This document shows, in pieces, positions 17,997 to 31,966 of a DNA stretch of 31,972 nucleotides (its first letter is position 1; every line of letters starts with the position of its first letter). The notes below the pieces were generated by a model. It worked only from the letters and a program-made list of their open reading frames with translations, was not told the origin of the DNA and searched no databases. A program made the position numbers and the translations under genes. This DNA is from a virus: positions 472 to 32,443 of the IMG/VR virus record IMGVR_UViG_3300030118_002271; one strand, 5' to 3'.

Positions 17997-18326
17997 ATGG
18001 CACTAGATCACGAAGCGATTTATAAAGCATACGCAGGAACAGTTGTTACTATTGATGACTCTGCAGGTGCGTTTGATAAAGATGGTAAGTCAGTCAGCTT
18101 GGATGATAGCCTTGTGGCAAAAGCAAGAACTGATCTAGATGAAGAAGCAGCTAAAGTAAAATACAAAACCGATAGAACAACAAATGGTTCTAAAACGTAT
18201 GACACAATCGGTAATCAATTGGACATGTTGTTTAAAGCAATTGATGCTGATTCAGATTTAAAAACTAAATTTGCTACATGGCACACTCACATAACTGAAG
18301 TAAAAAACGCTAATCCAAAACCATGA
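17997..18326 (+). CDS. conserved virion-associated protein in the fibre cassette
   Basis: A 109-residue protein. The N-terminus MALDHEAIYKAYAGTVVTID is followed by VAKARTDLDEEAAKVKYKTD, TYDTIGNQLDMLFKAID and a C-terminus WHTHITEVKNANPKP. The 'Y-x-x-IG-(D/N)QLDML' and 'VK-x-x-x-PKP' motifs recur in small proteins encoded among fibre genes of marine phages; function unknown, possibly fibre attachment or chaperoning. An AAGG lies about 10 bases before the ATG, one of few visible ribosome sites. It overlaps the next gene by 4 bp (ATGA). Confidence 0.75.
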   Translation: MALDHEAIYKAYAGTVVTIDDSAGAFDKDGKSVSLDDSLVAKARTDLDEEAAKVKYKTDRTTNGSKTYDTIGNQLDMLFKAIDADSDLKTKFATWHTHITEVKNANPKP

Positions 18327-19465
18327 GTGAAATTAAAGTAAATTCGATAAAAGGGGTAGGAGCTAGTACTGCTGCTATTACTGTCAACAATACTGATGGA
18401 ACGTGTACTGCCAATATTACTAATAATCTTAGTAATAGAAACAAGATAATTAATGGTTCGATGATTTGTAGTCAAAGGGGAAGCAGTTTTACTTCTGATG
18501 GATATACTTTAGATCGCTTTGAAAGACAACAAAGCAGCGATGGTGCTTTTACAGTGACACAATCTACTACTTCTCCTGATGGTTTTGCTAACAGTCTAAA
18601 GGTAGATGTGACAACTGCTGATACAAGTTTATCTGCGGCTCAATATGCACAAATTAAATATAAAATCGAAGCACAAGATTTACAAGACTTAGCATTTGGA
18701 ACAAGTGCAGCTAAAAGAATTGTATTGTCATTTTATGTAAGATCAAATAAAACCGGTAATTACGCTTTTGCAATAATGCAAAGTGATAATAGTTTTAAAA
18801 TGGCAAGTTTTCAATATACGATAAATTCTGCTGATACTTGGGAAAGAAAAACAATAATTATTGCTGGAGATACTTCTGGTGTTATTAATAATGATGTTGG
18901 CGATGGATTACTACTTCAATGGGCTTTAGCTGCTGGTAGTAACCTTACAAGTGGTTCATTAAGGTCAACATTTACAACACGAGTTGCTGCTGATCAGTAT
19001 GCTGGACAAGGAGTTAATTTATTAGATTCGACTTCAAACGAATGGTATATAACAGGAGTTCAATTAGAAGTAGATCAAACTGGGTCAGGCGTGGCAACAG
19101 ATTTTGAGCATAGGTCATTTGCTGAGGAGATTCAGTCTTGTTACAGGTATTATTATCATATAAAAGACAGTCAGTTGTTTGGCGGAAGAGCTGCAACAAG
19201 TGGTACGAGAGCAAAATGGACTATGATGACACCTGTTCCGCTTAGAGCAAGTCCTACTATAAATACTTCGCCCTTTGGTGACACTTGGAGTGCTACAGGA
19301 TATAAGTATAACAACAGTTCTACTTCTACTACTGTGCCAACTGTTAATGAATATCTTCAAAATTCCTGTCATATTTGTTTTAGTCAATTAGGACATTCTT
19401 TAGACGATGATCGAAATTTTACATGGCAAGCCAATGTTGATCTGGCGTTAGACGCTGAACTTTGA
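18323..19465 (+). CDS. fibre or tip protein with jelly-roll carbohydrate-binding-like domain
   Basis: A 380-residue protein. It starts MSEIKVNSIKGVGASTAAIT, then SNRNKIINGSMICSQRG and YTLDRFERQQ, a strongly recurring motif of marine phage tail proteins. Residues about 75-250 form a beta-sandwich resembling carbohydrate-binding modules (RIVLSFYVRSNKTGNYAFAI, NEWYITGVQLEVDQTGSGVA), followed by FEHRSFAEEIQSCYRYYYHI and a C-terminal beta domain to residue 380. It probably binds surface glycans at the fibre tip. It overlaps its upstream neighbour by 4 bp. The tail role is well supported by motif memory and context; ligand unknown. Confidence 0.78.
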   Translation: MSEIKVNSIKGVGASTAAITVNNTDGTCTANITNNLSNRNKIINGSMICSQRGSSFTSDGYTLDRFERQQSSDGAFTVTQSTTSPDGFANSLKVDVTTADTSLSAAQYAQIKYKIEAQDLQDLAFGTSAAKRIVLSFYVRSNKTGNYAFAIMQSDNSFKMASFQYTINSADTWERKTIIIAGDTSGVINNDVGDGLLLQWALAAGSNLTSGSLRSTFTTRVAADQYAGQGVNLLDSTSNEWYITGVQLEVDQTGSGVATDFEHRSFAEEIQSCYRYYYHIKDSQLFGGRAATSGTRAKWTMMTPVPLRASPTINTSPFGDTWSATGYKYNNSSTSTTVPTVNEYLQNSCHICFSQLGHSLDDDRNFTWQANVDLALDAEL

Positions 19466-19476
19466 TTTTTAAGATT

Positions 19477-19653
19477 ATGATTTTTACTTACAAATTTTTA
19501 GCATACGATTCATCAGATCCTAATGAAGATAAATTTCCATCTGTCCTAAGAAAAGAAGATGGTGCTTGTATTCCATGTGATCCTGATAACAGCGACTATC
19601 AAGAGTACCTTAAGTGGGTAGAAGAGGGAAATACAGCCGAAGCTGCTGATTAA
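19477..19653 (+). CDS. small fibre-cassette protein, possible assembly chaperone
   Basis: A 58-residue acidic protein starting MIFTYKFLAYDSSDPNEDKF. The core VLRKEDGACIPCDPDNSDYQ and EYLKWVEEGNTAEAAD follows a pattern (IP-x-D-x-x-NSDY-x-x-YL-x-W-x-x-EGN) found in small proteins and C-termini near phage tail fibre genes. A TTG at 19462 could extend it by five codons; the ATG at 19477 is preferred. It is the last gene of the + strand module, and its stop codon overlaps the stop of the - strand gene at 19650. Confidence 0.68.
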   Translation: MIFTYKFLAYDSSDPNEDKFPSVLRKEDGACIPCDPDNSDYQEYLKWVEEGNTAEAAD

Positions 19654-19907
19654 TTACATTTCCATTTTTTAAGAGCTAACCCTTTTCTTGTTAGCTTACC
19701 GCCTTTACTGGTTGCACCTTTAACACCTTTCATTCTTGCACAAAAAGATTTACGTCTTTTAGCAGCTTTACTACCAGGTTTAACTTTTCCTGTTACTGGT
19801 GCTTTAAGGTTACTACCTGTTTCTCTATTAATTTTATCTCTACCTTTTTTAGTAAGACCACCAGTTTTACTTTTGTGTTCTTTACGTAGCCTTACAGATT
19901 TAGCCAT
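19650..19907 (-). CDS. small basic conserved head-region protein
   Basis: An 85-residue very basic protein with SKTGGLTKKGRDKINRETGS, LKAPVTGKVKPGSKAAKRRK and SFCARM-KGVKGATSKGG, ending LALKKWKCN. I recall this sequence pattern as a conserved small protein (DUF6321-type) of marine and freshwater phages, often next to structural genes; function unknown. Its start overlaps the scaffold stop codon, so it is co-transcribed with portal and scaffold. It is the last gene of the - strand run and abuts the + strand module with no room for a separate terminator. Confidence 0.8.
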   Translation of the reverse strand: MAKSVRLRKEHKSKTGGLTKKGRDKINRETGSNLKAPVTGKVKPGSKAAKRRKSFCARMKGVKGATSKGGKLTRKGLALKKWKCN

Positions 19908-20740
19908 TAGTTAGATATACCAAATACGTTACTTTCAGCTAATCTTCTTTGTACTTCATGTTGAAAAGCAATATCAGTTTTATATCTAGGATCTCTCATA
20001 GCAGCTACTACTTCAGCATTAGATCTAAATACCTTTGTATTAGGACTAGAAGAAGTCTGACCACTAATTAATTTAGGTTCTACACCCATTGCATTTCTAT
20101 ACCTGGTAAACATTTTTTGCACAGCAAGAGTAACTTGTGGAATGTTTCTTTTTTCAGCATCTACAATTTTATCAAACTCTTGTAATTCTTCTTTAGGTAT
20201 ATTGCCATCCATCCATTGCAGCATTTCTAAATATTTTTCTTCACCACCTGCAATACCTACAATATCTTCATACTCAGGAAAAGAAGGATCAGCAGCAGGT
20301 TGTGTGCCCTCTTGTGGCTGCAAGCCATTAAGATAGCTATCTATAAGGTTACGAGGTAAACCTGTCTGTTCTAGCTGCTTGTAGTGCTCTTCTGTAATAG
20401 TTCCGTTGTTTTCCTGGTAATGTTTATTAATAGCAAAAGGATCTATTTCACTTTGTTCAAATAGTTCTCCTAATTTTTCTCCATACTGTTGTCTTGCAAG
20501 GTCATAATTTACAGAACCATCTTCCTTATATTCAACTACTTCTTCTGCTACTGGTTCTTCTTTAGTCTTTGCAACATCACCTAGCTTACCTTCTAACTCT
20601 TTATAGCTTGCAGCTAGATCTTCTACACTATTAAACTTACCTAAAATCTTACCGTTCTCAGATGTGTTTTCATCAGCATACTTCTGCAAGTCATCTTGTG
20701 ACATTGGAGGAGTTTCGTTTGATTGTAAAGATGCTTTCAT
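19907..20740 (-). CDS. capsid scaffold (assembly) protein, T7 gp9-like
   Basis: A 277-residue acidic, helical protein. Residues 8-60 include MSQDDLQKYADENTSENGKI and ILGKFNSVEDLAASYKELEG, typical of T7-like scaffolds. The middle is Glu- and Gln-rich (EDIVGIAGGEEKYLEMLQWM). The C-terminus is basic (PRYKTDIAFQHEVQRRLAES), the end that contacts the shell in this family. It directs capsid polymerisation and leaves the head before DNA packaging. It follows portal in T7 order, but the capsid gene that should come next is on the other strand at 633. Confidence 0.92.
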   Translation of the reverse strand: MKASLQSNETPPMSQDDLQKYADENTSENGKILGKFNSVEDLAASYKELEGKLGDVAKTKEEPVAEEVVEYKEDGSVNYDLARQQYGEKLGELFEQSEIDPFAINKHYQENNGTITEEHYKQLEQTGLPRNLIDSYLNGLQPQEGTQPAADPSFPEYEDIVGIAGGEEKYLEMLQWMDGNIPKEELQEFDKIVDAEKRNIPQVTLAVQKMFTRYRNAMGVEPKLISGQTSSSPNTKVFRSNAEVVAAMRDPRYKTDIAFQHEVQRRLAESNVFGISN

Positions 20741-20746
20741 AATTTT

Positions 20747-20905
20747 TTAGTTCATAGTAATAGTATTACCATTAGCAGTAATTTTTTCAACTGGCTCGCT
20801 AGGTTCTGGTGTATCGTTAACACCTAAACTACTTACAATAGCTTTTGCTTCTGTAGTTTCTTTAGACGGTTTGTTGTCCTTCTTGGGTGATTTGCTGGTT
20901 GGCAT
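20747..20905 (-). CDS. small acidic protein between portal and scaffold
   Basis: A 52-residue frame beginning MPTSKSPKKDNKPSKETTEA and ending KITANGNTITMN. It starts inside the portal gene in another frame (44-bp overlap) and ends 6 bp before the scaffold ATG, filling the gap exactly. The N-terminal half is basic and the C-terminal half acidic. No homologue is recognised. The tight fit between two structural genes supports it being real, but chance is not excluded. Confidence 0.5.
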   Translation of the reverse strand: MPTSKSPKKDNKPSKETTEAKAIVSSLGVNDTPEPSEPVEKITANGNTITMN

Positions 20906-22466
20906 TTGGTGTTACCTCATTTTGTAATAGTTGTGCTTCTGCTTGATTTTTAGGATCAAGTAATTTATGACCCTGTAATGCAGATGGAGCTAAGTCCTTG
21001 AGTAGTTGTTGCTGTTGTTCAGCTTGCAACTCTTGGGCTATTTCTTCTTTTGATTTTATCAAATTTAAAGTTTCTATACCAACGCTATTAGCTAACCTAA
21101 TAATTGCTTCATCTATATTCATATATCTTCTCATTACATCTACACCTAATGCTTGAGCTATCGTGCCTATAAACTCTATAAGTTTCTGTTTATCAGCATC
21201 CCTTCCTAAGCCATTTATACCTGTAACTATTTTAGGTCGTACTAATTTATCAGGTAATTTCGGTGCTTTACCTGCCCTTATAAGTAGATGTAATTTTCTA
21301 CGTAAATATTTTATTTGAAACTCACTACTTAATACAGAATAAATCCCTCCTAACGTAGCTTCTAAAGCATTACTCATTATCTGTATCTCAGTACTGGTAA
21401 CACGTTCTGCATCCCTTTGTATGCTCTTTGTCATAAGAAAAGCATCTTCTAATCTTTTTTCTATAGTTTGTTTTGCCTGGAAAGCTACAGCAAAATCATT
21501 ACCTTTGTTTGTTTGCAAGGTAGTAACATCAGTAGATAGTCCTTCTCTTACTGCACCATTAGGTGCATGACTTACAGCTTTAGCAGAAGTTACACCATTA
21601 GGATTTATAAAATATACTGTACGTGCAGATGCAGCAGCACCTTCTATTATTGCTTGCATCAATGCTTCTAAGCTAATTAGATCTCCTTTATATTCATTTA
21701 CATATGAAGTACCATAATTAGTATCAGTTTGAGTCCAACGTAAAACAATAAAAGGTGATACATCAACAGGAGAGATACCATCAGTACCAGGTATTTTTTC
21801 ACCCCTGCACTCTTGAAACCATACATGATTATTACCTTGACGTTCTACTTTTGTATATATATCTATTTCTGCATCTTCCATTGAATCTGCGTCATAGTTT
21901 TCTTTTTGTTTTATTTGTTCAAAAAATTCTGGATCTAATGCTTTTGTAGATACAGACTCCTTTGTAATTATTGTCAATACATTACCTACCTCATCCCTTT
22001 GTACGACATAACGATCTAAATAATAAACCTTTAATCCATCTTCAGTTATGTATAACAACACATTACCTACAACAATTAAATGTTTTAGAGCTTCAAACAT
22101 AGCTACTCTATCGTTGCTGGTTTCTATATCTGCCATCACAGCATTTTCTAAACTACGTAAACCTTTATCTATCTCAGCCATTATTTCAGACTGTCCACTT
22201 TTTTGTAGTTCTAATTCATCAATTATTAATTTAAAGAATGGTGTGTTAGGTGGTATTAAAGCCATCAACATTTTTGCTGCAAGGCTATTAGTACCAGCAG
22301 CACCAAGAGCTTGGTATGGTGTTTTTATTTTTTGTTTTTTTGCAGAATTATTATTAAATAAACTAGGTATTGTTAATTTTGCACAGTCATCACCATCACG
22401 TTCATATGATGATCTATCAACTGTCAGAATGTTATATAAACTTTCTGCTGTTTTTTGTGTTTCCAT
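20862..22466 (-). CDS. portal (head-tail connector) protein, T7 gp8-like
   Basis: A 534-residue protein, close to T7 gp8 (536). Recognisable segments are LGAAGTNSLAAKMLMALIPP near residue 52, LYITEDGLKVYYLDRYVVQR, TSYVNEYKGDLISLEALMQA, and the conserved DAERVTSTEIQIMSNALEAT stem near residue 352. The C-terminus is Gln-rich. Twelve copies form the DNA channel at one capsid vertex. It is transcribed leftward toward scaffold, as in T7. An additional small frame begins in its last 44 bp. Confidence 0.95.
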   Translation of the reverse strand: METQKTAESLYNILTVDRSSYERDGDDCAKLTIPSLFNNNSAKKQKIKTPYQALGAAGTNSLAAKMLMALIPPNTPFFKLIIDELELQKSGQSEIMAEIDKGLRSLENAVMADIETSNDRVAMFEALKHLIVVGNVLLYITEDGLKVYYLDRYVVQRDEVGNVLTIITKESVSTKALDPEFFEQIKQKENYDADSMEDAEIDIYTKVERQGNNHVWFQECRGEKIPGTDGISPVDVSPFIVLRWTQTDTNYGTSYVNEYKGDLISLEALMQAIIEGAAASARTVYFINPNGVTSAKAVSHAPNGAVREGLSTDVTTLQTNKGNDFAVAFQAKQTIEKRLEDAFLMTKSIQRDAERVTSTEIQIMSNALEATLGGIYSVLSSEFQIKYLRRKLHLLIRAGKAPKLPDKLVRPKIVTGINGLGRDADKQKLIEFIGTIAQALGVDVMRRYMNIDEAIIRLANSVGIETLNLIKSKEEIAQELQAEQQQQLLKDLAPSALQGHKLLDPKNQAEAQLLQNEVTPNANQQITQEGQQTV

Positions 22467-22467
22467 T

Positions 22468-22710
22468 TTAGTAATTTAGATTGCCACTTGCTGTACCACT
22501 AGCAAATAATGGTATTCGTAACGAGCTAGTACCTAACCTTCTTCTTGAAGTAGCAGCACCAGTTCTATTAGAACCTAAAGGATTTGTTGTCTTTGTTTCT
22601 TTTCTCTTACGACCAGTAACAGGAGCATCCGCAGTCCTTTCGGGCATTGGTGGTGTAGGTCTTGGTTCTGGTAATGGTGGTGGTGACGGTGGCTTCGGGA
22701 AAATACACAT
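22468..22710 (-). CDS. proline-rich small virion-region protein
   Basis: An 80-residue protein with an N-terminal proline-rich tract (MCIFPKPPSPPPLPEPRPTP) and a basic C-terminal half (GRKRKETKTTNPLGSNRTGA, RRRLGTSSLRIPL). Similar 'proline tract plus RKR/LRIPL' proteins lie beside portal genes in marine podoviruses; function unknown. Its start overlaps the stop of the gene at 22710-22919, and it ends 1 bp before the portal start, so it belongs to the portal transcript. Confidence 0.72.
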   Translation of the reverse strand: MCIFPKPPSPPPLPEPRPTPPMPERTADAPVTGRKRKETKTTNPLGSNRTGAATSRRRLGTSSLRIPLFASGTASGNLNY

Positions 22711-22919
22711 TAAATTTGACCCTCTAATACTGGTTCACTAAGCATTGTTTCTTTTTGTCGTTCTTGATGTTTCTTTAGGAAATCTACAACTGATCTTTGA
22801 CCAGCTTTGTACCATACTTCTCTATCAGTCCAACCTAAATCTGGTGGTTTGCTAGGGTAAATAGAATCTAAAGCATCTAGCAATTCATCAGTAAGTACTG
22901 GTAAATCACTAGCAGACAT
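22710..22919 (-). CDS. conserved small phage protein upstream of portal
   Basis: A 69-residue acidic protein, MSASDLPVLTDELLDALDSI onward, with a distinctive KPPDLGWTDREVWYKAGQRS and VVDFLKKHQERQKE. The 'P-x-LGWTDREVWYKAGQRSVV' pattern recurs in small phage proteins near head genes as I remember it; its function is unknown. It is the first gene after the only sizeable gap of the late - strand block (22920-22983), where transcription of the head genes may start or be boosted. Confidence 0.75.
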   Translation of the reverse strand: MSASDLPVLTDELLDALDSIYPSKPPDLGWTDREVWYKAGQRSVVDFLKKHQERQKETMLSEPVLEGQI

Positions 22920-22927
22920 AAAAAAAA

Positions 22928-22949
22928 CTAAATAACTTTACTTTAATAT
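22928..22949 (-). promoter_or_regulatory. AT-rich leader element before head genes
   Basis: Read on the - strand, ATATTAAAGTAAAGTTATTT lies 9 bp before the start at 22919 and is followed by a T8 run. It resembles ATTAAAAAAGTTAGTCA before the gene at 30486 and ATTAAAAAGTTAGTCA before the clamp-like gene at 31604. The rest of the 64-bp gap shows no gene. Whether this is a promoter, leader or translation enhancer cannot be told by eye. Confidence 0.35.
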
Positions 22950-22983
22950 AACGTGCAACCGCAAAATATCACACTCTTGGTTC

Positions 22984-23736
22984 TCAAAACGTAGGATTCC
23001 ATAGCTTAACTTCTCCTGTAGTGTAGTCATAATCACCCTCTCTTAGTATTCTTACAAGTCGAGCATTTAATATAGCATCAGAAATACCATTACCTTTCTT
23101 TTCATAAGTTTTTACAACTTGATTCCACATAGATTCTAAGTCTTTACTACTGTCTAAAAGTTTATTAGCTGATACCATACCTAAACCTTTTATACCTGGA
23201 ACACCATCTGTAGCGTCACCTGCTATTGTCATAGCCATAAAATTTCTATCCGCTTGTGATTTTGTTATTAGTTCTAATGTGTCACCTGCCAATAGTAGTC
23301 CTGGTATAGTTCTCATGTCTTTATCTACAGAGACTATAACTGGTTCATCATATCTACCATTTGTACTGAGCAAACCTAATACGTCATCACCTTCTAAATT
23401 AGGATAACTAATAGATTTATAAGTATCTTTTACTTCTTTAATAACATTATGTAAACCTAACGGATGTCTTTTATCTATTCTGTTTAATTTGTATTCTGTA
23501 AATATTTCATGTCTAAAAGTTGGGTAACTTGTAAAACACATAATAAGATCATCACTACCTTTATAACCTTCTGTCTGTAAGACATTTAGATAATATTTTA
23601 TTTTAAAATCTATCATGCTCATTGCTTCACGTTCATCCATTATTAGTTGATGGTTATATCTGTCGTATCTAATATCATGTTGAGCAGCACAGCAACAAGA
23701 ATAGATTAAGTAATCTGCGTCAATAAGTAATGTCAT
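22984..23736 (-). CDS. 5'-3' exonuclease, T7 gp6-like (flap endonuclease family)
   Basis: A 250-residue protein with the metal-binding motifs of the FEN/5'-3' exonuclease family in order: TLLIDADYLIY (2-12), YPNLEGDDVLGLLS (about 111-124), VIVSVDKDMR (about 133-142), and GDATDGVPGIKGLGMVSANK (about 173-192), the last being the helix-hairpin-helix region. In T7 gp6 removes RNA primers and degrades host DNA to nucleotides. Its start overlaps the helicase stop codon (TAATG), leaving no space for the DNA polymerase gene normally found between them. Confidence 0.93.
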   Translation of the reverse strand: MTLLIDADYLIYSCCCAAQHDIRYDRYNHQLIMDEREAMSMIDFKIKYYLNVLQTEGYKGSDDLIMCFTSYPTFRHEIFTEYKLNRIDKRHPLGLHNVIKEVKDTYKSISYPNLEGDDVLGLLSTNGRYDEPVIVSVDKDMRTIPGLLLAGDTLELITKSQADRNFMAMTIAGDATDGVPGIKGLGMVSANKLLDSSKDLESMWNQVVKTYEKKGNGISDAILNARLVRILREGDYDYTTGEVKLWNPTF

Positions 23737-25358
23737 TAGAAAAAATTAGGTAGTGCTCTAAGTCGAGAAGTTTCAGAGTCGTACAACAACTTATCTACTT
23801 CTCCTGTCATTCCTGTATGCCTGGATTTTAATATCTTCATTTGCAGTTGTGACCTTTCATCAGCAGAGTTAGATAACTGATTTCTTACTAGAGATATGCA
23901 TAAATCACTCATCTGTACTAATCCATGAGATCCACGAAAATCTCTTAAACTTACCTCCGCACCTTCTTCATGTCCTTTACCATCAGGTCTGCGTAAGTGA
24001 GTGACTACAAGTAAACAGATATTAGTTTCTTCTATAAGACTACGTAGTTTTGTAGATAATATGTCTAAACTTTTTCTCTCGTCATTATTTTCTATGCCAG
24101 AAACAACTATAGATATATGGTCTAGTATCACTACATCTACACCATCTGTAGTAGCTAGGTTTCTTATCTGCGATAGTAATATATCAGGTTCTATACTGCC
24201 AAAATGATTATATAAATAAAGACTTCGTGTACCTGTTAATTTATCAAATGCAGCTTTTACAGCAGTTTTATCTATAGCGTCCTGTTTTAGATGTAGAGGT
24301 GTGTTTAAGTCAATAGAAACTAATCTCATTAGTGACCGTTGTACTGACTCTTCTAGGGCTATATAACCTACTTTTAGACCACTCTTAAGAAAGTGACTAG
24401 CAAACTCTCCGCATAATGTAGATTTACCTGCACCACTACCTGCTGCTATAGCAACCATTTGCGTAGGAAATAAACCGCCAGTAAATTTATTCAATTCTGG
24501 ATATGGATAATCACATATAGGTTTACTTGTCTCTTTACTAAATAAATCCCAAGCATCAGCAGCATTTATAATATGATCTGTTCTACAAGGTTGTGCTTTC
24601 CATAAAATATCTTTTAGTTCTTCTCCACGTTTTGCTACTAATAAATCATTAACGTCATTTATATCATCAGGTAATCTTGCTATCGCAGCTTTACCTTTAG
24701 GTAATACTTTTAGTGCTTTATCTGCACCAACTTCACCAGCATTATCATTATCAAAACAAATTACAGACCTACAAAATTTATTTATAAATTCATATTCTTT
24801 TGATAAATATTTAGCTGCTGACTGTACACCAGAAGGAACTGATACACAAGGAAAGCGGTGATTAAAAATTTGACTAGCTGCCATGCAATCAATTTCGCCT
24901 TCAAAAATTGATAAGAAAATATCTCCTGTATTTTGTATTCTGCAATTTATCTGACCATATAACTGCACCTGACTTATATCACCTATCCATATAAATTTTT
25001 TGTTAGCAAACCTTATATGTTGAGCTATATCTATACCTTGACTATTTTGATATGTTGCTACCTGGCATTGCTGACCTTTGTATTCACTAACACCATATTT
25101 GAATAGTTCGCAAGTCTCTTTAGTGATTCCACGTTTAGGTAAGTCGGTGTATGTAACAGGTAATAGTTTCACTTCTTTTTTAAATACTGGTTGTTGTATA
25201 GGTTTTGGAATAAATTTTTTTTGTGGTTTTTTATCTGGGTAATAACTGTAATCACAGTCAACAGAAAAACAATAAGCATGACCATCATCAAACCAAGCTA
25301 AATTATCTTTTGATTTACATTGTGGGCACTCAGTTTTTTTTACATACTTGCTTTGCAT
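23736..25358 (-). CDS. DNA primase/helicase, T7 gp4-like
   Basis: A 540-residue fusion. An N-terminal zinc ribbon has Cys11, Cys14, Cys30 and Cys35 (CPQC...CFSVDC). A TOPRIM primase core follows with IFEGEIDCMAAS near 155 and VICFDNDNAGEVGADK near 200. The RecA-type helicase domain begins near 275, with Walker A GSGAGKST (Lys312), VILDHISIV as Walker B, and LLVVTHLRRPDGKGHEEG and DFRGSHGLVQMSD further on. The length is close to T7 gp4 (566). It unwinds DNA and makes RNA primers at the fork. The gene order is endonuclease, small frame, helicase, exonuclease. Confidence 0.95.
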   Translation of the reverse strand: MQSKYVKKTECPQCKSKDNLAWFDDGHAYCFSVDCDYSYYPDKKPQKKFIPKPIQQPVFKKEVKLLPVTYTDLPKRGITKETCELFKYGVSEYKGQQCQVATYQNSQGIDIAQHIRFANKKFIWIGDISQVQLYGQINCRIQNTGDIFLSIFEGEIDCMAASQIFNHRFPCVSVPSGVQSAAKYLSKEYEFINKFCRSVICFDNDNAGEVGADKALKVLPKGKAAIARLPDDINDVNDLLVAKRGEELKDILWKAQPCRTDHIINAADAWDLFSKETSKPICDYPYPELNKFTGGLFPTQMVAIAAGSGAGKSTLCGEFASHFLKSGLKVGYIALEESVQRSLMRLVSIDLNTPLHLKQDAIDKTAVKAAFDKLTGTRSLYLYNHFGSIEPDILLSQIRNLATTDGVDVVILDHISIVVSGIENNDERKSLDILSTKLRSLIEETNICLLVVTHLRRPDGKGHEEGAEVSLRDFRGSHGLVQMSDLCISLVRNQLSNSADERSQLQMKILKSRHTGMTGEVDKLLYDSETSRLRALPNFF

Positions 25359-25434
25359 TTTGCCAATCTTTAATAAGTCGTTTTAATTCAGAAATGCGTT
25401 TCCTAGCATATTTAATTTTATCTTTAGTTTGCAT
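25330..25434 (-). CDS. tiny basic helical protein between endonuclease and helicase
   Basis: A 34-residue frame (MQTKDKIKYARKRISELKRL, then IKDWQNAKQVCKKN). It overlaps the endonuclease end by 11 bp and the helicase start by 29 bp and fills the only gap between them. It is predicted as one basic amphipathic helix. No family is recognised. Translation could serve to couple the two larger genes, but the frame may also be fortuitous. Confidence 0.45.
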   Translation of the reverse strand: MQTKDKIKYARKRISELKRLIKDWQNAKQVCKKN

Positions 25435-25792
25435 ACCAATCGTCAGGAATAAATTTATCGCAATATTTAAACCCATGTCTCGTACACCATTTGGCATACG
25501 AGATAGAGTTTTTAGCTTTAGATAATTTAGTTTTGCTGTTTTGAAAACAGAATCTAATATCTAGTTCGGGTCTAGCCTTCTTGATAATAAGATGCTTTCT
25601 TCTGTCCTCTTTTGAGAAGTACCCCTTTGTTTCAACAATAAAATTGTCGAGGATAAAATCAGGCTTGTAGCAGCAAGTAATTTCATAATCTATTTCAAGA
25701 GATTCATAGGTAAATACAATTTTGTTTTTGTTTAGTTTAGTAGCAAATTCTTTTTCAAACTTGCTTTTGTACTTATTACCAATCACTTGCAC
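25424..25792 (-). CDS. endonuclease I (Holliday junction resolvase), T7 gp3-like
   Basis: A 122-residue protein with the PD-(D/E)xK core: SKFEKEFATKL (candidate Glu15), CCYKPDFIL (Asp45), and NFIVETKGYF (Glu54, Lys56), in the order and near the spacing of T7 gp3 (Glu20, Asp55, Glu65, Lys67). The C-terminal part has NSISYAKWCTRHGFKY, also seen in this family. T7 gp3 resolves branched DNA and helps break down the host chromosome. It overlaps the SSB gene by 17 bp and lies just after it, as in related phages. Confidence 0.9.
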   Translation of the reverse strand: MQVIGNKYKSKFEKEFATKLNKNKIVFTYESLEIDYEITCCYKPDFILDNFIVETKGYFSKEDRRKHLIIKKARPELDIRFCFQNSKTKLSKAKNSISYAKWCTRHGFKYCDKFIPDDWYAN

Positions 25793-26477
25793 TTGCTGGT
25801 TGTTTTATAGGTTGACCTGGTTCATCATCATGGCTATTAAAAGTTACATTTTGTGTAACAGGTTTAAATCCCATATCTTCTGGTGATGACATTCCATCCC
25901 AAGCTACAAAGTTTCTAACTATTACAGAAACAGGTTGTATTCTTAAACCTACTTCATCTAATTCAAAACCTTGCACACGTAAATATGCTTGACCTCTTGA
26001 CTCAGGACTTATTTTATCAAACTTTGCTGACTCATCCCTTGTAAGAAAAACTACTTTATCACCTACTTGTTGTGCAAATTTTGGTGGTGGTAATTCAAAT
26101 TCAGCACCTTGTTTATTAGTTCTTTTACCACTAGGCATACGACAATATACTTCTAATCCTTGTTCTGTTATTTTCCAATATTCTTTAGGTGCTCCATCTT
26201 TTGTACGTGACCAGGTAAATTTTTTATCTGGATTTTCTCTACGTAATTGGTCTTTCCAATCAATTTTATATTGTTCTAATTTATTAACCATAAACTCTAC
26301 TGAGTTTTGTGGTTCTGTTCCTGGCAATCCTATATCAGCAGGTATAAATGTATCGTCTGGTTTAAATACAAGTGTTAGCTGATAGTATCCATACTTAGGT
26401 TCTGGTTTATATAACCATGCATAAGTTAAGTTTGCATAAGGTGTTGTCAACATTAAAGTTGGTGCTTTGCTTCCCAT
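25776..26477 (-). CDS. single-stranded DNA-binding protein, T7 gp2.5-like
   Basis: A 233-residue protein with an OB-fold-like body (TPYANLTYAWLYKPEPKYGY, YQLTLVFKPDD, KDGAPKEYWKITEQGLEVYC, VRNFVAWDGMSSPEDMGF) and a polar, acidic tail ending DEPGQPIKQPASASDW. T7 gp2.5 also ends in acidic residues plus a terminal aromatic residue that contacts polymerase and helicase; here the last residues are Asp-Trp. The assignment is by layout and position directly after RNA polymerase. It is the first gene after a gap holding a candidate phage promoter and a hairpin. Confidence 0.87.
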   Translation of the reverse strand: MGSKAPTLMLTTPYANLTYAWLYKPEPKYGYYQLTLVFKPDDTFIPADIGLPGTEPQNSVEFMVNKLEQYKIDWKDQLRRENPDKKFTWSRTKDGAPKEYWKITEQGLEVYCRMPSGKRTNKQGAEFELPPPKFAQQVGDKVVFLTRDESAKFDKISPESRGQAYLRVQGFELDEVGLRIQPVSVIVRNFVAWDGMSSPEDMGFKPVTQNVTFNSHDDEPGQPIKQPASASDW

Positions 26478-26502
26478 TGAGATTCATTGAATGTATTTTA
26501 AG

Positions 26503-26521
26503 AAACGTCTTATAGACGTTT
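26503..26521 (-). promoter_or_regulatory. 8-bp hairpin in the SSB leader
   Basis: AAACGTCT (26503-26510) and AGACGTTT (26514-26521) form a perfect stem with a 3-base loop in the 85-bp gap between RNA polymerase and SSB. It lacks a clear T run on the - strand, so a processing or stabilising hairpin is likelier than a terminator. A near-palindrome TATTGACGTTAATA (26527-26540, 12 of 14 symmetric) lies next to it. TTGACG and TATAAG separated by 18 bp within this region could also be a host-type promoter. Confidence 0.4.
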
Positions 26522-26540
26522 AAGTATATTAACGTCAATA

Positions 26541-26552
26541 CATATAGTGTCT
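26541..26552 (-). promoter_or_regulatory. candidate phage RNA polymerase promoter
   Basis: On the - strand the sequence AGACACTATATG lies about 75 bases before the SSB start and directly after the RNA polymerase gene. It shares GACACTATA with the SP6 promoter core and CACTATA with the T7 promoter. This is where T7-like phages often place a promoter for the DNA metabolism genes. A single site in an AT-rich genome is weak evidence, and recurrence could not be shown. Confidence 0.33.
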
Positions 26553-26562
26553 AGGTATATCT

Positions 26563-28896
26563 TCAACTAAATACATATGGTGCATTGATTATATGATTTA
26601 AATCAAAGTTACCTAATGGTTTTAGGTTTTTATATAACTCACATCTATTAGACCAGGTATATAAATTTACTAAATTTTTCTTTACTTGTTTTATAAATGG
26701 TTCTATTTCTTGTGCGTTAGCAGCAAAACTATCATGTATAGTAACTAAACTTTTAAATCCTTTTGCTTTATATACTTCTGATAATGCTAAATGTACGTTA
26801 GCTGCGTCATAACTATGTACAAAATTAGGTGTAATACTATTTCTTATTTTCTTTTTATCTAATGTTTTAGTGTCGTATGTATAACATAACCATAAACTAG
26901 ACTCATTAAATTTTGTTCTTACCTGTTTAGATTCTTTTATATAATAATTTTGTTCAACAATAAAACCTGATGGTGTAGTCCATGTTGTAGCTTGACTATC
27001 TTTTAAATAATCCATTACATATTTACAAGAAGGAAATATTTGATCTAATGCAGTTCTTATTTGTTTTACTAAAAAATGTAAATGACTATTTGTTATATTG
27101 TCATTCCATTTTTTTGTTTCTAAATAATTAATCATACCAAAATCTGTTCCACCGTAAGGGATCATAAGAATTGGTTTTTTTATTCTGTTTCTATCTAAGT
27201 TTTTATCATTTAATAAATCCTTACATTTTCTTGTATCAGAAAAATTAAATCGTGACATATAATTTAAATTATATCTTAGTTTTTCTAACACTAAGCTATA
27301 AAGATCTTGTCTATTGCCTTTAGTTAGGTTAGTAGCTACAGCTAACTTCTCATCTTTTGTAAGGCAAGCTATATGTTGATAAGCATTATTAGTACCATCT
27401 AAATGTATAGGTAAACCAGTTTTATAATTACTATCATCCATATATTTTTTATATTCCAAACACCATGCAAGAAACTGAAATGGTTTATTTGCTTTACTCC
27501 ATAAGGTTACGTTACCTATAGGATCACTAGCAATTTGTTTTGCATATCTACTACCAGTATTTCTTACCCATGCACTACGTTCCATAAAAGATGCACCATC
27601 ATTAGTCCATAAGTTATAACCTGCTATTTGAAACCATTTCATACTGTAGTCTGTATAGCTTAGAGAAACAGGCTCATCAAACAAATGTAGTGACCTGGCT
27701 AAATCATTACCTTGTGGATTTAGATGTGGTGTAACGCAATATAATCGTCCTCTAAAGTCCGATTGAAATACATGGTAGAAAGTTTTATCTATATATTTTT
27801 CAGCAATATTAATAATAGATAATATCAATAATCTCTTAGATCTTATGCTTGCGTTATAGTCATGTACTTTTGCAGCTTCGTATCTATATTTATCTCTAGC
27901 TACTTTATTTGTATCTATATCATGCGGTTTTGGTGGCAATGGCATAGGTTCGCAGTCAAGAATATCACTTTTGTTATCAAACAATTCTTTTACTATCTTT
28001 AAAATATCTTTATTTATGATCCAACCTACTTCTTGCAATGCATTTACAGCATTATAAAAATCTACAGGATTAGCTTTATCTAATTTATGCAAAAAGTTTT
28101 TATTTTTAGTCTTAACAATATCTAATTTAGATAAACGTGGTGTATGATAACCACCATCAAAAGGATTAGTCCATTTTCTAGGTTTTATAATGCATGGTTG
28201 ATAATAAGGTACAGCAATATTTTTATTCATTTTTTGATTATTAATCCATTCAATAGCACTATCAGTAAGTTGTAGATATTTATTTGTGCTCTTACTACTA
28301 CCTTTAGTTCTAACAACAGTTGTAGTTAATTTTATAGATGACTGTATAATCTCTACTAATTTTGCCCCTATGCGTAATTTATCTTCCTGTTTCCAACCTT
28401 CAAAAATATGATTTGATTTATTCATATGGTGTATTAATACTTTACGTCTATATCTGCTATGCCTGGTATCTCTTAAATGATGTTTTATATCGTGAAAATA
28501 TTTTTTATCACATTCTTCATAAAAACAATACCTTAATTCGTCTTCTAATCTAGTTCCTATTTGTATTGCTACTGAATTGAATGTTCTTTTATTCCATGCT
28601 GTAGCACCATCTAGTATTACTTTTAAAGCTATAAAACTTACTACATATAAATCATCAAACTCACTTAATAAATTTGCAGTTCTTGACTTACGACCTGCTT
28701 TACCTGACTTTGCATATTTTATAAATGCACTTAATTTTTTTGTTACCTTTTCTATTCCACAATAAATAATTCCTCTGCTGTAATCATTTTCACTTTCTTT
28801 ACCTTGCTTTTTATTTGTTTCTCTTATTTTATTTAATCGACTTATACCTAAATCGACCATACTGTTTTCTAGTTCTACTTGATCTTCATAATTCAT
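26563..28896 (-). CDS. single-subunit DNA-dependent RNA polymerase, T7 gp1-like
   Basis: A 777-residue polymerase of the T7 class. Catalytic motifs are intact: motif A LPIHLDGTNNAYQH with Asp500 (T7 Asp537), motif B KKPILMIPYGGTDFG with Lys573 and Tyr581 (T7 Lys631, Tyr639), and motif C VTIHDSFAANA with Asp722 (T7 Asp812). It ends PYVFS, recalling the conserved aromatic C-terminus FAFA of T7. It is about 100 residues shorter than T7 RNA polymerase, mostly in the N-terminal region. It transcribes the middle and late genes from phage promoters. Its start overlaps the integrase gene by 11 bp, so the two share a transcript. Confidence 0.97.
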   Translation of the reverse strand: MNYEDQVELENSMVDLGISRLNKIRETNKKQGKESENDYSRGIIYCGIEKVTKKLSAFIKYAKSGKAGRKSRTANLLSEFDDLYVVSFIALKVILDGATAWNKRTFNSVAIQIGTRLEDELRYCFYEECDKKYFHDIKHHLRDTRHSRYRRKVLIHHMNKSNHIFEGWKQEDKLRIGAKLVEIIQSSIKLTTTVVRTKGSSKSTNKYLQLTDSAIEWINNQKMNKNIAVPYYQPCIIKPRKWTNPFDGGYHTPRLSKLDIVKTKNKNFLHKLDKANPVDFYNAVNALQEVGWIINKDILKIVKELFDNKSDILDCEPMPLPPKPHDIDTNKVARDKYRYEAAKVHDYNASIRSKRLLILSIINIAEKYIDKTFYHVFQSDFRGRLYCVTPHLNPQGNDLARSLHLFDEPVSLSYTDYSMKWFQIAGYNLWTNDGASFMERSAWVRNTGSRYAKQIASDPIGNVTLWSKANKPFQFLAWCLEYKKYMDDSNYKTGLPIHLDGTNNAYQHIACLTKDEKLAVATNLTKGNRQDLYSLVLEKLRYNLNYMSRFNFSDTRKCKDLLNDKNLDRNRIKKPILMIPYGGTDFGMINYLETKKWNDNITNSHLHFLVKQIRTALDQIFPSCKYVMDYLKDSQATTWTTPSGFIVEQNYYIKESKQVRTKFNESSLWLCYTYDTKTLDKKKIRNSITPNFVHSYDAANVHLALSEVYKAKGFKSLVTIHDSFAANAQEIEPFIKQVKKNLVNLYTWSNRCELYKNLKPLGNFDLNHIINAPYVFS

Positions 28897-29734
28897 TAGC
28901 CATACCTACATACTTATGTAAATCGTCAGGTGAAAAGTGTGCATATGCCATAGTTTGCTCTAATTTGTTATGACCTACCCATTTACTAACTATAGGTATT
29001 GGTATTCCTTTCATAATCATTCTTTTTATTGCAGTATGACGCAATATATGAATAGTAAAAGTCTTATCTTTACCTTTACCTAGATCAGTTCTAACCTTAT
29101 CCCATCCTTTATCTAACCAAAACCAGTTATAAGGAAATATACGTTCATTATCTTCCTTCCATTCTGCATACAAACTAATAATTTCCATACATTTATCAGT
29201 CATAGGTACAGCAATAGGATTATTACATTTTCTTTTTTCAAATAATATCTGTTTTCTATCAAAATTAATATCTCTTTTTTTTAAACCTAATAGTTCTCCT
29301 GATCTACATCCTAGTTCTAACAATACCTGGCATATATCTTTATGCTCTATAAAACCTAATAGTTTAAATTTATTCCATAGTTCAATAATTTCATTATCAT
29401 TCAAATGTGGAATAACTCTTTTAGTTCTAGGTAAATTGCGAGGAAAAGTTATATTAGTTTTATAACCTTCTTCGGCCATAGTTTTTAAAGTGGATTTTAA
29501 ATATCCAGTTCGCATATTTATAGTATCGTTAATATTTTTTTCTACGTTTTTACCGTAGTCTATTAACTTACTTACATCCTTAGATGTAATTTGATCTATC
29601 TTTTTATTACCTAAGATAGCTATGCATTGCTTTATCAGTCTTATGTACTGACTAGCGGATTCCTGACCGTTTTTATATCGGCCATAATGAGTCATCATTG
29701 CTTCATGCAATGTAGGGATTTTAGTTTTTGGCAT
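28886..29734 (-). CDS. int: tyrosine site-specific integrase
   Basis: A 282-residue tyrosine recombinase. The N-terminal SAM-like core-binding domain covers about 10-100 (SASQYIRLIKQCIAIL). The catalytic domain shows ELGCRSGELLGLKKRD with Arg144, HILRHTAIKRM with His229 and Arg232, VGHNKLEQTMAYAHF with His255 and nucleophile Tyr264. All visible key residues are present, so it should be active. It implies integration into the host chromosome. Its position directly upstream of RNA polymerase matches integrase-carrying pelagiphages and some cyanopodoviruses. No attP with tRNA similarity could be identified nearby. Confidence 0.95.
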   Translation of the reverse strand: MPKTKIPTLHEAMMTHYGRYKNGQESASQYIRLIKQCIAILGNKKIDQITSKDVSKLIDYGKNVEKNINDTINMRTGYLKSTLKTMAEEGYKTNITFPRNLPRTKRVIPHLNDNEIIELWNKFKLLGFIEHKDICQVLLELGCRSGELLGLKKRDINFDRKQILFEKRKCNNPIAVPMTDKCMEIISLYAEWKEDNERIFPYNWFWLDKGWDKVRTDLGKGKDKTFTIHILRHTAIKRMIMKGIPIPIVSKWVGHNKLEQTMAYAHFSPDDLHKYVGMANEL

Positions 29735-29906
29735 TTAGTAACCTGTTTAGTTGTTGCTGAGTTTTATCAAATTCGACAATATATTCCTTCATAGTAATTT
29801 GATTAGCTTCATCTTCCCAGACTCTAGTTAGTTCAGCTAATTTAGCTTCTAACTTTTCTATCTTGGCAAGTCTAGCTTTTTTAAAATCTTCATTTAAGTC
29901 GTTCAT
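29721..29906 (-). CDS. small coiled-coil protein
   Basis: A 61-residue protein with a long heptad-like helix (LAKIEKLEAKLAELTRVWED) and a second helix (EYIVEFDKTQQQLNRLLNAK). It overlaps the zinc-ribbon gene upstream by 17 bp and the integrase gene downstream by 14 bp, so it is part of one compact operon. It could dimerise and act with the integrase or regulator, but nothing in the sequence says so directly. No family recognised. Confidence 0.65.
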   Translation of the reverse strand: MNDLNEDFKKARLAKIEKLEAKLAELTRVWEDEANQITMKEYIVEFDKTQQQLNRLLNAKN

Positions 29907-30132
29907 CTTTTTCTACTGCAAGTTTTACTAATTCATTTAAATGATAAAAATGTAAATCTTTTTTATACTCTTCTTCACTTATCTCCCTTGTACTGAAGCT
30001 AAAACCGCACTTAAGGCACTTTCTACGTCTATAGGTATAGTTAAGGTCAGTTCTAACTTCATTAGCACCTCTACCGGTACGTGTAATCGTTACCTGGTTT
30101 TGAGTGCTGCTACATTCTGGACATTCAATCAT
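29890..30132 (-). CDS. zinc-ribbon transcription-factor-like protein
   Basis: An 80-residue protein with a C4 zinc ribbon: CPEC at residues 4-7 and CLKC at about 39-42, framed by TYRRRKCLKCGFSFSTREIS. The arrangement, CPxC, then a basic RRR, then CxxCgxxFsT, resembles the NrdR N-terminal ribbon and phage Ogr/Delta-type activators. It lies in the early operon just before integrase and RNA polymerase, so a role in switching gene expression or controlling lysogeny is plausible. DNA binding is inferred from the zinc ribbon alone. Confidence 0.78.
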   Translation of the reverse strand: MIECPECSSTQNQVTITRTGRGANEVRTDLNYTYRRRKCLKCGFSFSTREISEEEYKKDLHFYHLNELVKLAVEKDERLK

Positions 30133-30292
30133 TACTTTCCTCTTTTTTTATTTGCAAGTATTTACTATCTAACTTTTCTACACATAAATCCCATGCATCT
30201 TCATGGGATATGTCTAATAATTTAGCTAGTTCTTTAGATAAATCTCTTAGATGACTAGCTATTGCACTTAAATTGTAAGGATAATCACTCAT
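30125..30292 (-). CDS. small acidic helical protein in the early operon
   Basis: A 55-residue frame, MSDYPYNLSAIASHLRDLSK onward, with ELAKLLDISHEDAWDLCVEK and a charged tail. The start shares one base with the stop of the preceding gene (TAATG), and it overlaps the zinc-ribbon gene by 8 bp, which argues for a real translated gene. LSKELAKLLDISHEDAWDL could form helices like a small DNA-binding or adaptor protein. No family recognised. Confidence 0.6.
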   Translation of the reverse strand: MSDYPYNLSAIASHLRDLSKELAKLLDISHEDAWDLCVEKLDSKYLQIKKEESND

Positions 30293-30486
30293 TAATCTAC
30301 CTCTATTTCTAAAAGTGTTTTAACACATTCTCTTTTTAATAAAGATATGCACTCTTTTTTATCTAATTGTTTACGTGAAACATTAGGTAAAAGTTGTGGT
30401 ATGTTACTACTTCTACCTAAAATCCTACATAACCTTTCATGTATGCACTCTAACTCTATTAAAGTTGCATAATCCTTTCTTTTCAT
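30292..30486 (-). CDS. small basic early protein
   Basis: A 64-residue protein, MKRKDYATLIELECIHERLC onward, with RILGRSSNIPQLLPNVSRKQ and a helical C-terminus with three further cysteines that do not form an obvious zinc motif. It is the first gene downstream of the complex regulatory gap at 30487-30651, with AAGG about 12 bases before the ATG, and thus the first gene of the regulator-integrase-polymerase run. No family is recognised. A regulatory role is possible from position only. Confidence 0.62.
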   Translation of the reverse strand: MKRKDYATLIELECIHERLCRILGRSSNIPQLLPNVSRKQLDKKECISLLKRECVKTLLEIEVD

Positions 30487-30501
30487 AATAAAAAACCTTA
30501 A

Positions 30502-30605
30502 TGACTAACTTTTTTAATTTTGCCAGGATGACAAAAATATTGATCCTGTTTTGCCAGGATGCTATATACAATAATCTATAATGCTATAAAAAACAATAGA
30601 TTATT
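30502..30605 (-). promoter_or_regulatory. operator-like cluster upstream of the integrase-polymerase operon
   Basis: The gap contains several repeats. TTTTGCCAGGATG occurs at 30518-30530 and 30549-30561, 31 bp apart (three helical turns). The second copy is half of an 18-bp dyad ATCCTG-N6-CAGGAT (30543-30560). ATGCTATA occurs at 30559 and 30581, 22 bp apart. AATAATCTAT (30570-30579) and ATAGATTATT (30596-30605) form a perfect 10-bp inverted repeat. ATTAAAAAAGTTAGTCA (30502-30518, - strand) is shared with the clamp gene leader. This looks like a regulated promoter region; no single -10/-35 pair stands out. Confidence 0.6.
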
Positions 30606-30615
30606 ATATATTCAG

Positions 30616-30642
30616 TAAAAAATACCTGGTATTTCTACCAGG
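30616..30642 (-). terminator. terminator with GAAA tetraloop
   Basis: On the - strand CCTGGTA-GAAA-TACCAGG (30642-30625) forms a perfect 7-bp stem with a GAAA tetraloop, followed by TATTTTTTAC. It ends the transcript of the small genes 30652-31604 before the regulatory gap. Confidence 0.82.
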
Positions 30643-30651
30643 CATATTAAT

Positions 30652-30789
30652 TTAATCGTCATTCTCATCATGTCGATAAAATTTATAAGTAGATGAATCA
30701 TCATCACTTGCTAGTCTTACCCAATTATTAGGGCAGTTTTCTAACCAATTATGAAATTCATCATCCATTAAACTACGATCATATGTCAT
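30652..30789 (-). CDS. small acidic protein
   Basis: A 45-residue frame, MTYDRSLMDDEFHNWLENCP onward, with NNWVRLASDDDSSTYKFYRH and an acidic end DENDD. It is very acidic (about a quarter Asp or Glu). The start lies 4 bp after the stop of the HTH-like gene upstream, and its stop is 10 bp before the terminator hairpin stem. Small acidic early proteins of phages sometimes inhibit host enzymes by mimicking DNA; this is only a thought. No family recognised. Confidence 0.6.
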   Translation of the reverse strand: MTYDRSLMDDEFHNWLENCPNNWVRLASDDDSSTYKFYRHDENDD

Positions 30790-30793
30790 AGTC

Positions 30794-30946
30794 TTAATCC
30801 AATAGATACTTACGTTTTAATTTATCGTAAGTTGATTGACTACAACTTGCTAGTTTGCAGTAGCTAGTTTGTTTAATCATCCAATCATGCTCTAATAAGA
30901 TAGGGATCATTCTCTGATCCCTTATTGGTGTATTAAATAAAGACAT
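30794..30946 (-). CDS. small helix-turn-helix-like protein
   Basis: A 50-residue basic frame, MSLFNTPIRDQRMIPILLEH onward. Residues about 28-47 (SYCKLASCSQSTYDKLKRKY) resemble a helix-turn-helix: helix with Leu-Ala, a turn around SCSQS, and a basic recognition helix TYDKLKRKY. The start codon lies one base after the stop of the clamp-like gene (TAATATG), so both are on one transcript. Possible small repressor acting on the operators at 30502-30605; this link is inference. Confidence 0.58.
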   Translation of the reverse strand: MSLFNTPIRDQRMIPILLEHDWMIKQTSYCKLASCSQSTYDKLKRKYLLD

Positions 30947-30947
30947 A

Positions 30948-31604
30948 TTACTTATTACCTAAATAGTTAGCATTAACCTGTACAGGCATAATTAAAAAGG
31001 TTACGTTAGTTTCCTCTAACCTATTAAAATCTAATTCTGATTTAAAGATAACCGGTGATGTAGGTTTATTAGAAAATAAAGTGCTAACTTTATTACTACC
31101 TAAATACTTATGAATAGCATTAAAGTATAAACCTAAGTACTGACTATTAAAGCCAATACCATTACCAGGCAAGCAATCTAATTTGTCAGGTATTAACTGA
31201 CTTGTATCAGGATAAGTAGCATTAACCTTTTCATAAGTACTAAATGACTTATTAGTAGCATGCCACACTTGAAAAGTATTATCACTATAAAAATCTACAT
31301 TAGTAGCTTTTATATCTGATTTATTAAAATGATCCTTATGTATCAAGATAGATTTATCATAAGAAAAATCATAAAAATCATTTATACTACCTTCCCATCT
31401 AAATAAATAGTGCCCATTAGTTGACTCTATAACAATAGAATTAGTTTTTTCTACTTTATAGCAGTTAATGTACTGTAAAACGTGCCTACTTTCATCCTTA
31501 CTTGCAAACTTACTAGCTAGATGTAGCACTTGATAAGGCAATTTGGCCTGGATGATAGCTTTATCATTAATAGAGACTTTATTCTCTAATACTGTTGAAG
31601 TCAT
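30948..31604 (-). CDS. sliding-clamp-like protein (DNA polymerase III beta-related), shortened
   Basis: A 218-residue protein that matches motif by motif the second half of bacterial DnaN. Residues 38-46 ESRHVLQYI followed by STNGHYLFRW (61-70) correspond to the domain II pattern 'TR-x-VL-x-G ... ATDGHRLA'. FSTYEKVNATYPDTSQLIP (121-139) corresponds to 'KLIDGxFPDYxRVIP'. GIGFNSQYLGLYFNAIHKYL (149-168), SPVIFKS (183-189) and FLIMPVQV (203-210) correspond to the domain III end 'GFNxxYLxDxLxAL ... PV ... YVxMPMRL'. Domain I and the first half of domain III appear absent. Bacterial clamps have about 370 residues. A role as phage clamp, or as a decoy for host clamp partners, is possible. Confidence 0.72.
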   Translation of the reverse strand: MTSTVLENKVSINDKAIIQAKLPYQVLHLASKFASKDESRHVLQYINCYKVEKTNSIVIESTNGHYLFRWEGSINDFYDFSYDKSILIHKDHFNKSDIKATNVDFYSDNTFQVWHATNKSFSTYEKVNATYPDTSQLIPDKLDCLPGNGIGFNSQYLGLYFNAIHKYLGSNKVSTLFSNKPTSPVIFKSELDFNRLEETNVTFLIMPVQVNANYLGNK

Positions 31605-31632
31605 AATAAATAAAAAATTGACTAACTTTTTA

Positions 31633-31661
31633 ATAGGATTAACTTATTAAGAAAATCCTAT
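31633..31661 (-). promoter_or_regulatory. 29-bp near-perfect dyad upstream of the clamp-like gene
   Basis: Arms ATAGGATTAACTTA and TAAGAAAATCCTAT around a central T pair at 12 of 14 positions. It lies 29 bp upstream of the clamp-like ATG, next to the shared ATTAAAAAGTTAGTCA element (31619-31634). It could be an operator or a leader hairpin. The surrounding gap 31605-31709 holds no gene. Confidence 0.45.
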
Positions 31662-31691
31662 ATAAATAAACCAGGTATATTAAATACCTGG
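31658..31691 (-). terminator. terminator-like hairpin
   Basis: CCAGGTAT (31671-31678) and ATACCTGG (31684-31691) form a perfect 8-bp stem with a 5-base loop. On the - strand it is followed by TTTATTTATATAGG, a broken T tract. It lies 18 bp after the stop of the small gene 31710-31829 and probably ends that transcript. Confidence 0.6.
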
Positions 31692-31709
31692 AATATTTAT
31701 AAAGGACTA

Positions 31710-31829
31710 TCAATAACCAATTAAATATAAAAACTTTTTATATGTAATTTTGTTATCAAAGTATAAAGCTATGCAGTCATAAAGGTGTAAATCAGAATAA
31801 CCTATTAAATCTAGTTCTAATTGTTTCAT
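31710..31829 (-). CDS. very small protein of unknown function
   Basis: A 39-residue frame, MKQLELDLIGYSDLHLYDCI onward, ending KKFLYLIGY; rich in Leu, Tyr and Ile. It starts 2 bp after the stop of the partial gene to its right and is followed by a terminator hairpin, which supports translation as the last gene of an early transcript. No family recognised. Confidence 0.5.
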   Translation of the reverse strand: MKQLELDLIGYSDLHLYDCIALYFDNKITYKKFLYLIGY

Positions 31830-31831
31830 AA

Positions 31832-31966
31832 TTAAGCATTAACTAAATTCTTAGTACATATATAAGGTTTTTCCCTACTTCTACCTACGTCTATATAGCA
31901 ATAATAAGCAATGTGATGATAATCAGTCATAATATCCGATTTATCAAACCATTTATCACCTTTCAT
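31832..31966 (-). CDS. small unknown protein at the right edge, possibly partial
   Basis: A 44-residue frame from the ATG at 31966: MKGDKWFDKSDIMTDYHHIA, then YYCYIDVGRSREKPYICTKN and LVNA. The frame stays open to the window edge (31972), so the true start could be outside. It ends 2 bp before the next small gene. No family recognised. Confidence 0.5.
   Translation of the reverse strand: MKGDKWFDKSDIMTDYHHIAYYCYIDVGRSREKPYICTKNLVNA

Follow-up and report, generated by a model that had tools for sequence, protein, structure and literature searches.

We describe a sliding clamp homolog encoded in a 31,972-nucleotide stretch of viral DNA (hereafter the window; part of a 32,443-bp virus record), which corresponds to domain II and the C-terminal half of domain III in DnaN, the bacterial beta clamp, and preserves the peptide-docking cleft lying between them; domain I, the N-terminal half of domain III and all the dimer-interface residues that we checked have been lost. 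We put at about one in two the probability that this protein, here termed the mini-clamp, works as a ring-incompetent, cleft-only clamp that binds the clamp-binding motifs of host proteins as a competitor or an adaptor. The gene is carried by a T7-type cyanophage that appears to be devoid of a DNA polymerase of its own.

Homology and architecture of the mini-clamp

The mini-clamp ORF (30948-31604, minus strand) begins with an ATG and codes for 218 residues. As a single sequence it matched the NCBIfam dnaN profile TIGR00663 with E = 3.6e-7 and 29.5 bits, which lies below the curated cut-off of 137.65 bits, the best stretch pairing residues 30-141 with profile positions 141-251 of 367. Among the PHROGs families it recovered phrog_3007 over its full length (E 2.4e-17; profile 3-187 of 190) and phrog_947, annotated as 'DNA polymerase processivity factor' (1.9e-6). 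Single-sequence searches of Pfam, and of PDB with phmmer, gave no match, and profiles were needed to reach solved structures: a profile of 19 relatives recovered solved beta clamps (best 6deg, 2e-8) in two stretches, with profile positions 29-143 corresponding to clamp residues 152-268 (domain II) and positions 152-213 to residues 331-381 (second half of domain III), residues 269-330 being skipped. Widening the profile to 26 sequences brought the beta-clamp match to E = 1.4e-9. The AlphaFold2 model of the monomer (mean pLDDT 76.8, pTM 0.78) is confident for domain II and moderate for the second half of domain III (IIIB; block pLDDT about 69-78), and the best PDB matches of this model in Foldseek were all beta clamps (4.2e-9, probability 1.00). 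With an earlier model of the mini-clamp as the query, BFVD yielded many phage proteins of 163-215 residues with a similar shape. The mini-clamp is homologous to DnaN and is predicted to adopt the clamp fold. A preliminary description made from the letters alone had assigned to the ORF about three of the six DnaN repeats, those of domain II and of the closing half of domain III, and the two-stretch profile match and the fold bear this out; it had also named a lack of DnaN profile matches, or an unlike fold, as what would speak against it, and both the profiles and AlphaFold2 with Foldseek returned beta clamps.

To locate what has been deleted, we aligned E. coli DnaN and the full-length clamp of phage S-H1 with 13 mini-clamps, taken both from the clade of the window and from phages unrelated to it. 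Domain I is absent from all 13, and 55-59 residues of domain III are missing in the mini-clamps of Synechococcus, Vibrio, Acinetobacter, Salmonella and E. coli phages, such that the equivalents of P242 and I317 stand 15-19 residues apart in the 13 mini-clamps as against 74 in E. coli. By this alignment the deletion is clean and common to the mini-clamps of diverse phages. The domain-II equivalent spans residues 18-146 (31165..31553, minus strand; delimited by DSSP of the AlphaFold2 model, the profile match to clamp residues 152-268 and the alignment), and comprises the strands and helices of repeat IIA (residues 18-73, with the TNGH motif at 62-65) and the strands of repeat IIB (residues 86-123), whose helix is shortened to residues 90-93. 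It is followed by IIIB at residues 149-209 (30978..31160, minus strand; profile match to clamp residues 331-381 and alignment), which supplies the FNSQYL (N153, Y156) and MP (206-207) parts of the docking cleft. Thus, relative to the three domains and six beta-alpha-beta3 repeats of the 366-residue DnaN (TIGR00663, PF02767/PF02768), the mini-clamp shares the fold, domain II, the second half of domain III and the cleft, but not domain I, the first half of domain III or the dimer interface: in the alignment the E. coli interface residues I78, F106, I272, L273, E298 and E304, as named in PMC11139829, all fall within the deleted segments.

Relatives in phrog_3007 are annotated inconsistently, as a beta clamp ('DNA pol III beta subunit'), as hypothetical or as RusA. 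The last stems from the label 'RusA-like Holliday junction resolvase' on phrog_3007, and it has spread to GenBank/RefSeq entries of the phages Skate, AB4P2 and Bas77-79. Taken at face value, this label and the strong match to the family would make the mini-clamp a resolvase, but no Pfam RusA match was obtained up to E 10, and sequence and predicted structure alike match beta clamps. Moreover, the phrog_3007 profile hits within the full-length protein annotated as DnaN in phage S-H1 and gives matches, counted at the level of whole genomes, in 9 of 14 controls, and Synechococcus phage S-SRP02 encodes RusA separately from its mini-clamp homolog. The resolvase identity is refuted at the level of homology by the match to clamps in both sequence and fold; we give it a practically negligible probability, and the label appears to be an error.

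Docking cleft, selection and the question of a ring

All 18 positions of the peptide-binding cleft (as listed in PMC11139829) are retained in the mini-clamp, 11 of them identical to E. coli; the DnaN residues with cleft equivalents are L155, T172, G174, H175, P242, N320, Y323, M362 and P363. Cleft positions share a mean identity of 0.68 with E. coli, the remaining positions 0.16, and none of 20,000 random position sets reached the cleft value, a test that speaks to which positions are conserved, the cleft being needed by ring and non-ring clamps alike. Across the 13 mini-clamps, 10 positions are at least 90% identical to E. coli, and 9 of these belong to the cleft. The window gene displays a dN/dS of 0.13-0.21 against eight relatives (Nei-Gojobori), from which it is clear that it is maintained under purifying selection; a decaying pseudogene is ruled out by these values along with the shared deletion.

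To our knowledge, the well-known sliding clamps are all rings of twelve repeats, and T4 gp45 and PCNA are clamps with subunits of similar length to the mini-clamp. Those two assemble as trimers of two-domain subunits (PMC9690074) with four repeats per subunit, whereas the mini-clamp has three repeats and a DnaN-derived sequence. Four mini-clamps would again supply twelve repeats, and the protein could on this count be a re-engineered sliding clamp, a tetramer with new interfaces at the free IIB and IIIB edges that confers processivity on the host polymerase on phage DNA. The fold is predicted to be intact, and 26 mini-clamps all share K95, a lysine beside the shortened helix of IIB. Yet both natural interfaces are deleted, the DNA-contact residues of domain I are missing and no clamp loader was noted in the window. 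Further, the family-wide invariants are mostly in IIA and the cleft, and repeat IIB itself, which would have to provide a new edge, contains only K95 among them. We consider such a ring unlikely. Between the two readings offered in the preliminary description, a miniature ring and a decoy, the evidence leans to a cleft-binding protein, be it decoy or adaptor, because the ring interfaces are gone while the cleft is conserved.

The phage and the neighborhood of the gene

With Prochlorococcus phage P-SCSP2 the window shares ~89% identity in the capsid protein and 58.7% in the primase/helicase, for which identity to pelagiphages is about 40%. The window record is incomplete, with the terminase region missing; the terminases of its mini-clamp-bearing relatives are 82-84% identical to that of P-SCSP2. 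By these similarities the phage is an MPP-C-like cyanopodovirus with P-SCSP2 as its nearest cultured relative, and its host, judged from relatedness, is most likely Prochlorococcus; no tRNA gene for host assignment was found. The SAR11/pelagiphage setting assumed in the preliminary description is accordingly unsupported, while its T7-type assignment holds, with a T7-like RNA polymerase (26563..28896, minus strand), a T7-type DNA primase/helicase (23736..25358, minus strand), a capsid and a portal all found.

In T7-type phages the DNA polymerase usually lies between the primase/helicase and the exonuclease, as it does in pelagiphage HTVC120P. In the window the 3' end of the primase/helicase ORF overlaps the ORF of the T7 gp6-like 5'-3' exonuclease (22984..23736, minus strand) by 1 nt at 23736, which leaves the interval without a DNA polymerase gene. 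PolA, PolB and DnaE domains were absent from the window record, from a 35-kb sister record that includes the terminase and from S-SRP02, with HTVC120P giving a PolA match as the positive control; for the window record, absence of a polymerase rests partly on the sister contig and the 1-nt overlap. The phage thus appears to be without its own DNA polymerase, and the contrast with T7 and its thioredoxin drawn in the preliminary description does not apply, as no T7-type DNA polymerase was found. This combination of T7-like core genes without a DNA polymerase is that of the MPP-C clade, which includes P-SCSP2 and was published as having no DNA polymerase gene, its replication mechanism being stated as open (PMC9860041).

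The mini-clamp gene sits in a short cluster with terminator-like hairpins at both bounds, all on the minus strand. Right past its stop begins a 50-aa ORF (30794..30946), which has no PHROGs match and whose homolog is found directly downstream in 8 of the 12 relatives examined; the third gene is a 45-aa ORF (30652..30789) with a homolog in 3 of the 12. A terminator-like hairpin followed by a T-run (30622..30645) marks the downstream end of the cluster, and a terminator-like palindrome, CCAGGTATTTAATATACCTGG (31671..31691), lies upstream of the mini-clamp; 6 terminator-like sites were found in this region vs 0.3 expected. Just upstream of the mini-clamp, a 39-aa ORF (31710..31829, minus strand) starts MKQLELDL and so displays a consensus clamp-binding motif (QLxLxL). 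It is kept in only one other relative (L010), and the QLELDL motif could be due to chance; the phage's own proteins contain 5 clamp-binding motifs vs 4.5 expected, which is no enrichment. Downstream of the cluster lies a tyrosine integrase (28886..29734, minus strand). An 80-aa protein (29890-30132, minus strand) has an NrdR-like zinc ribbon (Pfam 2.2e-6, just above the cut-off); S-SRP02 has a longer gene annotated as NrdR. Genes run on the plus strand over 633-19653 and on the minus strand over 19650-31966, so that the genes from capsid to tail form an inverted block when compared with P-SCSP2, in which all run in one direction. As the separate contig G001 has the same arrangement, this inversion is probably real and no misassembly.

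Distribution and proposed function

In IMG/VR we recovered 15 close relatives of the mini-clamp and a dozen more at 26-47% identity. Beyond these, a Vibrio mini-clamp matches 195 phage records, many of them annotated as beta clamps, and a homolog is listed, annotated by similarity only, in the paper on S-SRP02 (PMC8790148); the earlier statement that no case had been described was hence too strong. A literature search, with most subscription papers outside it, found no published function or reduced architecture for the phage mini-clamps, which as far as found belong to an existing but functionally unstudied phage family. The S-SRP02 homolog (ORF14, QTP86370.1) is 30% identical to the window protein over 94%, and lies in the terminase-integrase interval of a phage likewise without a detectable DNA polymerase, although S-SRP02 is a freshwater phage of 63% GC. 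The phrog_3007 proteins called 'DNA polymerase III beta subunit' in Skatevirus, Dhillonvirus and Vibrio phages, a family of which the window protein is a member, have the same size class, architecture and deletion, but differ in sequence (about 20-30% identity), in belonging to other tailed-phage groups and in that at least one such phage has its own polymerase. A scan of genome contigs yielded no prophage copies of the mini-clamp, and a scan of viral contigs with the Vibrio protein as the sole query gave none either.

Eight cultured phages bearing a mini-clamp were searched for PolA, and seven (S-SRP02, Vibrio 1.087.A, R20L, K249, 1.029.O, AB4P2 and Skate) gave no match. The eighth, Dhillonvirus Bas14 of the BASEL collection, has both a mini-clamp and a family-A polymerase, which rules out a strict link between the mini-clamp and polymerase loss. 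In Bas14 the mini-clamp (L047 5007-5525, minus strand) has spanin and capsid genes around it and lies on the opposite strand. A DnaN-like clamp with all three domains is encoded by Synechococcus phage S-H1 (L017 14635-15684), in which PolA gave no match.

Within the window's clade the slot between terminase and integrase, anchored on the terminase, is occupied by the mini-clamp in 13/13 contigs of the window's subclade that reach it, none of which has ArdC, and by an ArdC-like gene in all 14 such contigs of the sister subclade, none of which has the mini-clamp. Among 45 wider P-SCSP2-like contigs extending at least 2.5 kb downstream of the terminase, the mini-clamp occurs in none and ArdC in 28; as these slot counts follow phylogeny, they amount to few independent events. 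The ArdC-like anti-restriction gene (ArdcN plus metallopeptidase; L015 35301-36251, L174-L187) never occurs alongside the mini-clamp. No distant mini-clamp was detected in P-SCSP1u, P-SCSP2 or the 10-kb fragment MedDCM S08-C159. With P-SCSP2 and P-SCSP1u polymerase-less and lacking it, the mini-clamp is dispensable for host-dependent replication in the clade; the distribution shows it to be an accessory gene there, and no general need of polymerase-less replication. Since sister phages without a polymerase also lack it and have the ArdC-like gene in its slot, an accessory role in take-over or against the host is suggested, less so that of an obligatory replication factor.

The alternation with ArdC could be taken to mean that the mini-clamp is likewise an anti-host gene, its cleft binding clamp-dependent anti-phage factors of the host. 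However, the pattern tracks phylogeny, and neither gene is present in 14 of 34 closed intervals of wider relatives; PADLOC, a library of defence rather than counter-defence systems, gave no match. We regard counter-defence as improbable on this evidence. Another possibility is that the mini-clamp takes the place of thioredoxin as a processivity aid and, as an adaptor, holds a host polymerase on the phage primase-helicase, be it Pol III or Pol I, the latter being of family A like T7 gp5. The phage retains the primase-helicase, an SSB-like gene and the exonuclease with no detectable polymerase, and recruitment of host Pol I or Pol III has been named among the open possibilities (PMC9860041); but sister phages manage without the mini-clamp, no second binding surface was identified on it and, as Bas14 illustrates, it is not strictly tied to polymerase loss. 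This tethering role, too, seems doubtful to us.

The cleft-only reading given at the outset supposes that, with the docking cleft kept and the ring-closing parts gone, the mini-clamp would act on its own or within a small assembly that is not a ring, and would then bind QLxLF-type motifs in Pol III alpha, the delta subunit of the clamp loader and other clamp partners of the host, and by competing for or diverting these partners would turn host replication capacity toward a phage that lacks a polymerase. A free cleft is a plausible competitor because a monomeric mutant of the E. coli clamp binds delta about 50 times tighter than the dimer does (PMC11139829). Another phage product directed at the host's clamp machinery is Gp168 of phage Twort (PMC11139829), though Gp168 targets the DNA channel of the clamp and is no clamp fragment. 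Against the cleft-only reading, conservation of the cleft fits ring formation equally well, as any clamp needs it, and sequestering the clamp loader could harm the phage itself if host Pol III is used.

More broadly, and only tentatively, a widespread phage family may have pared the sliding clamp down to a free-standing docking cleft, which would seize replication proteins of the host through the clamp-binding motifs that these contain and, in cyanophages without a polymerase, might help to redirect the host replicase. Exposing the RusA mislabel on phrog_3007 bears on the many phage annotations into which it has spread, and the mini-clamp should be easy to study experimentally, since the BASEL collection includes E. 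coli K-12 phages with relatives of it. Its presence in relatives of abundant marine polymerase-less cyanophages provides a concrete handle on their replication, described as an open matter (PMC9860041). That a conserved phage family has dropped the ring-closing parts and kept the docking cleft suggests a clamp-derived non-ring protein; if true, this would be a clamp whose function requires no ring.
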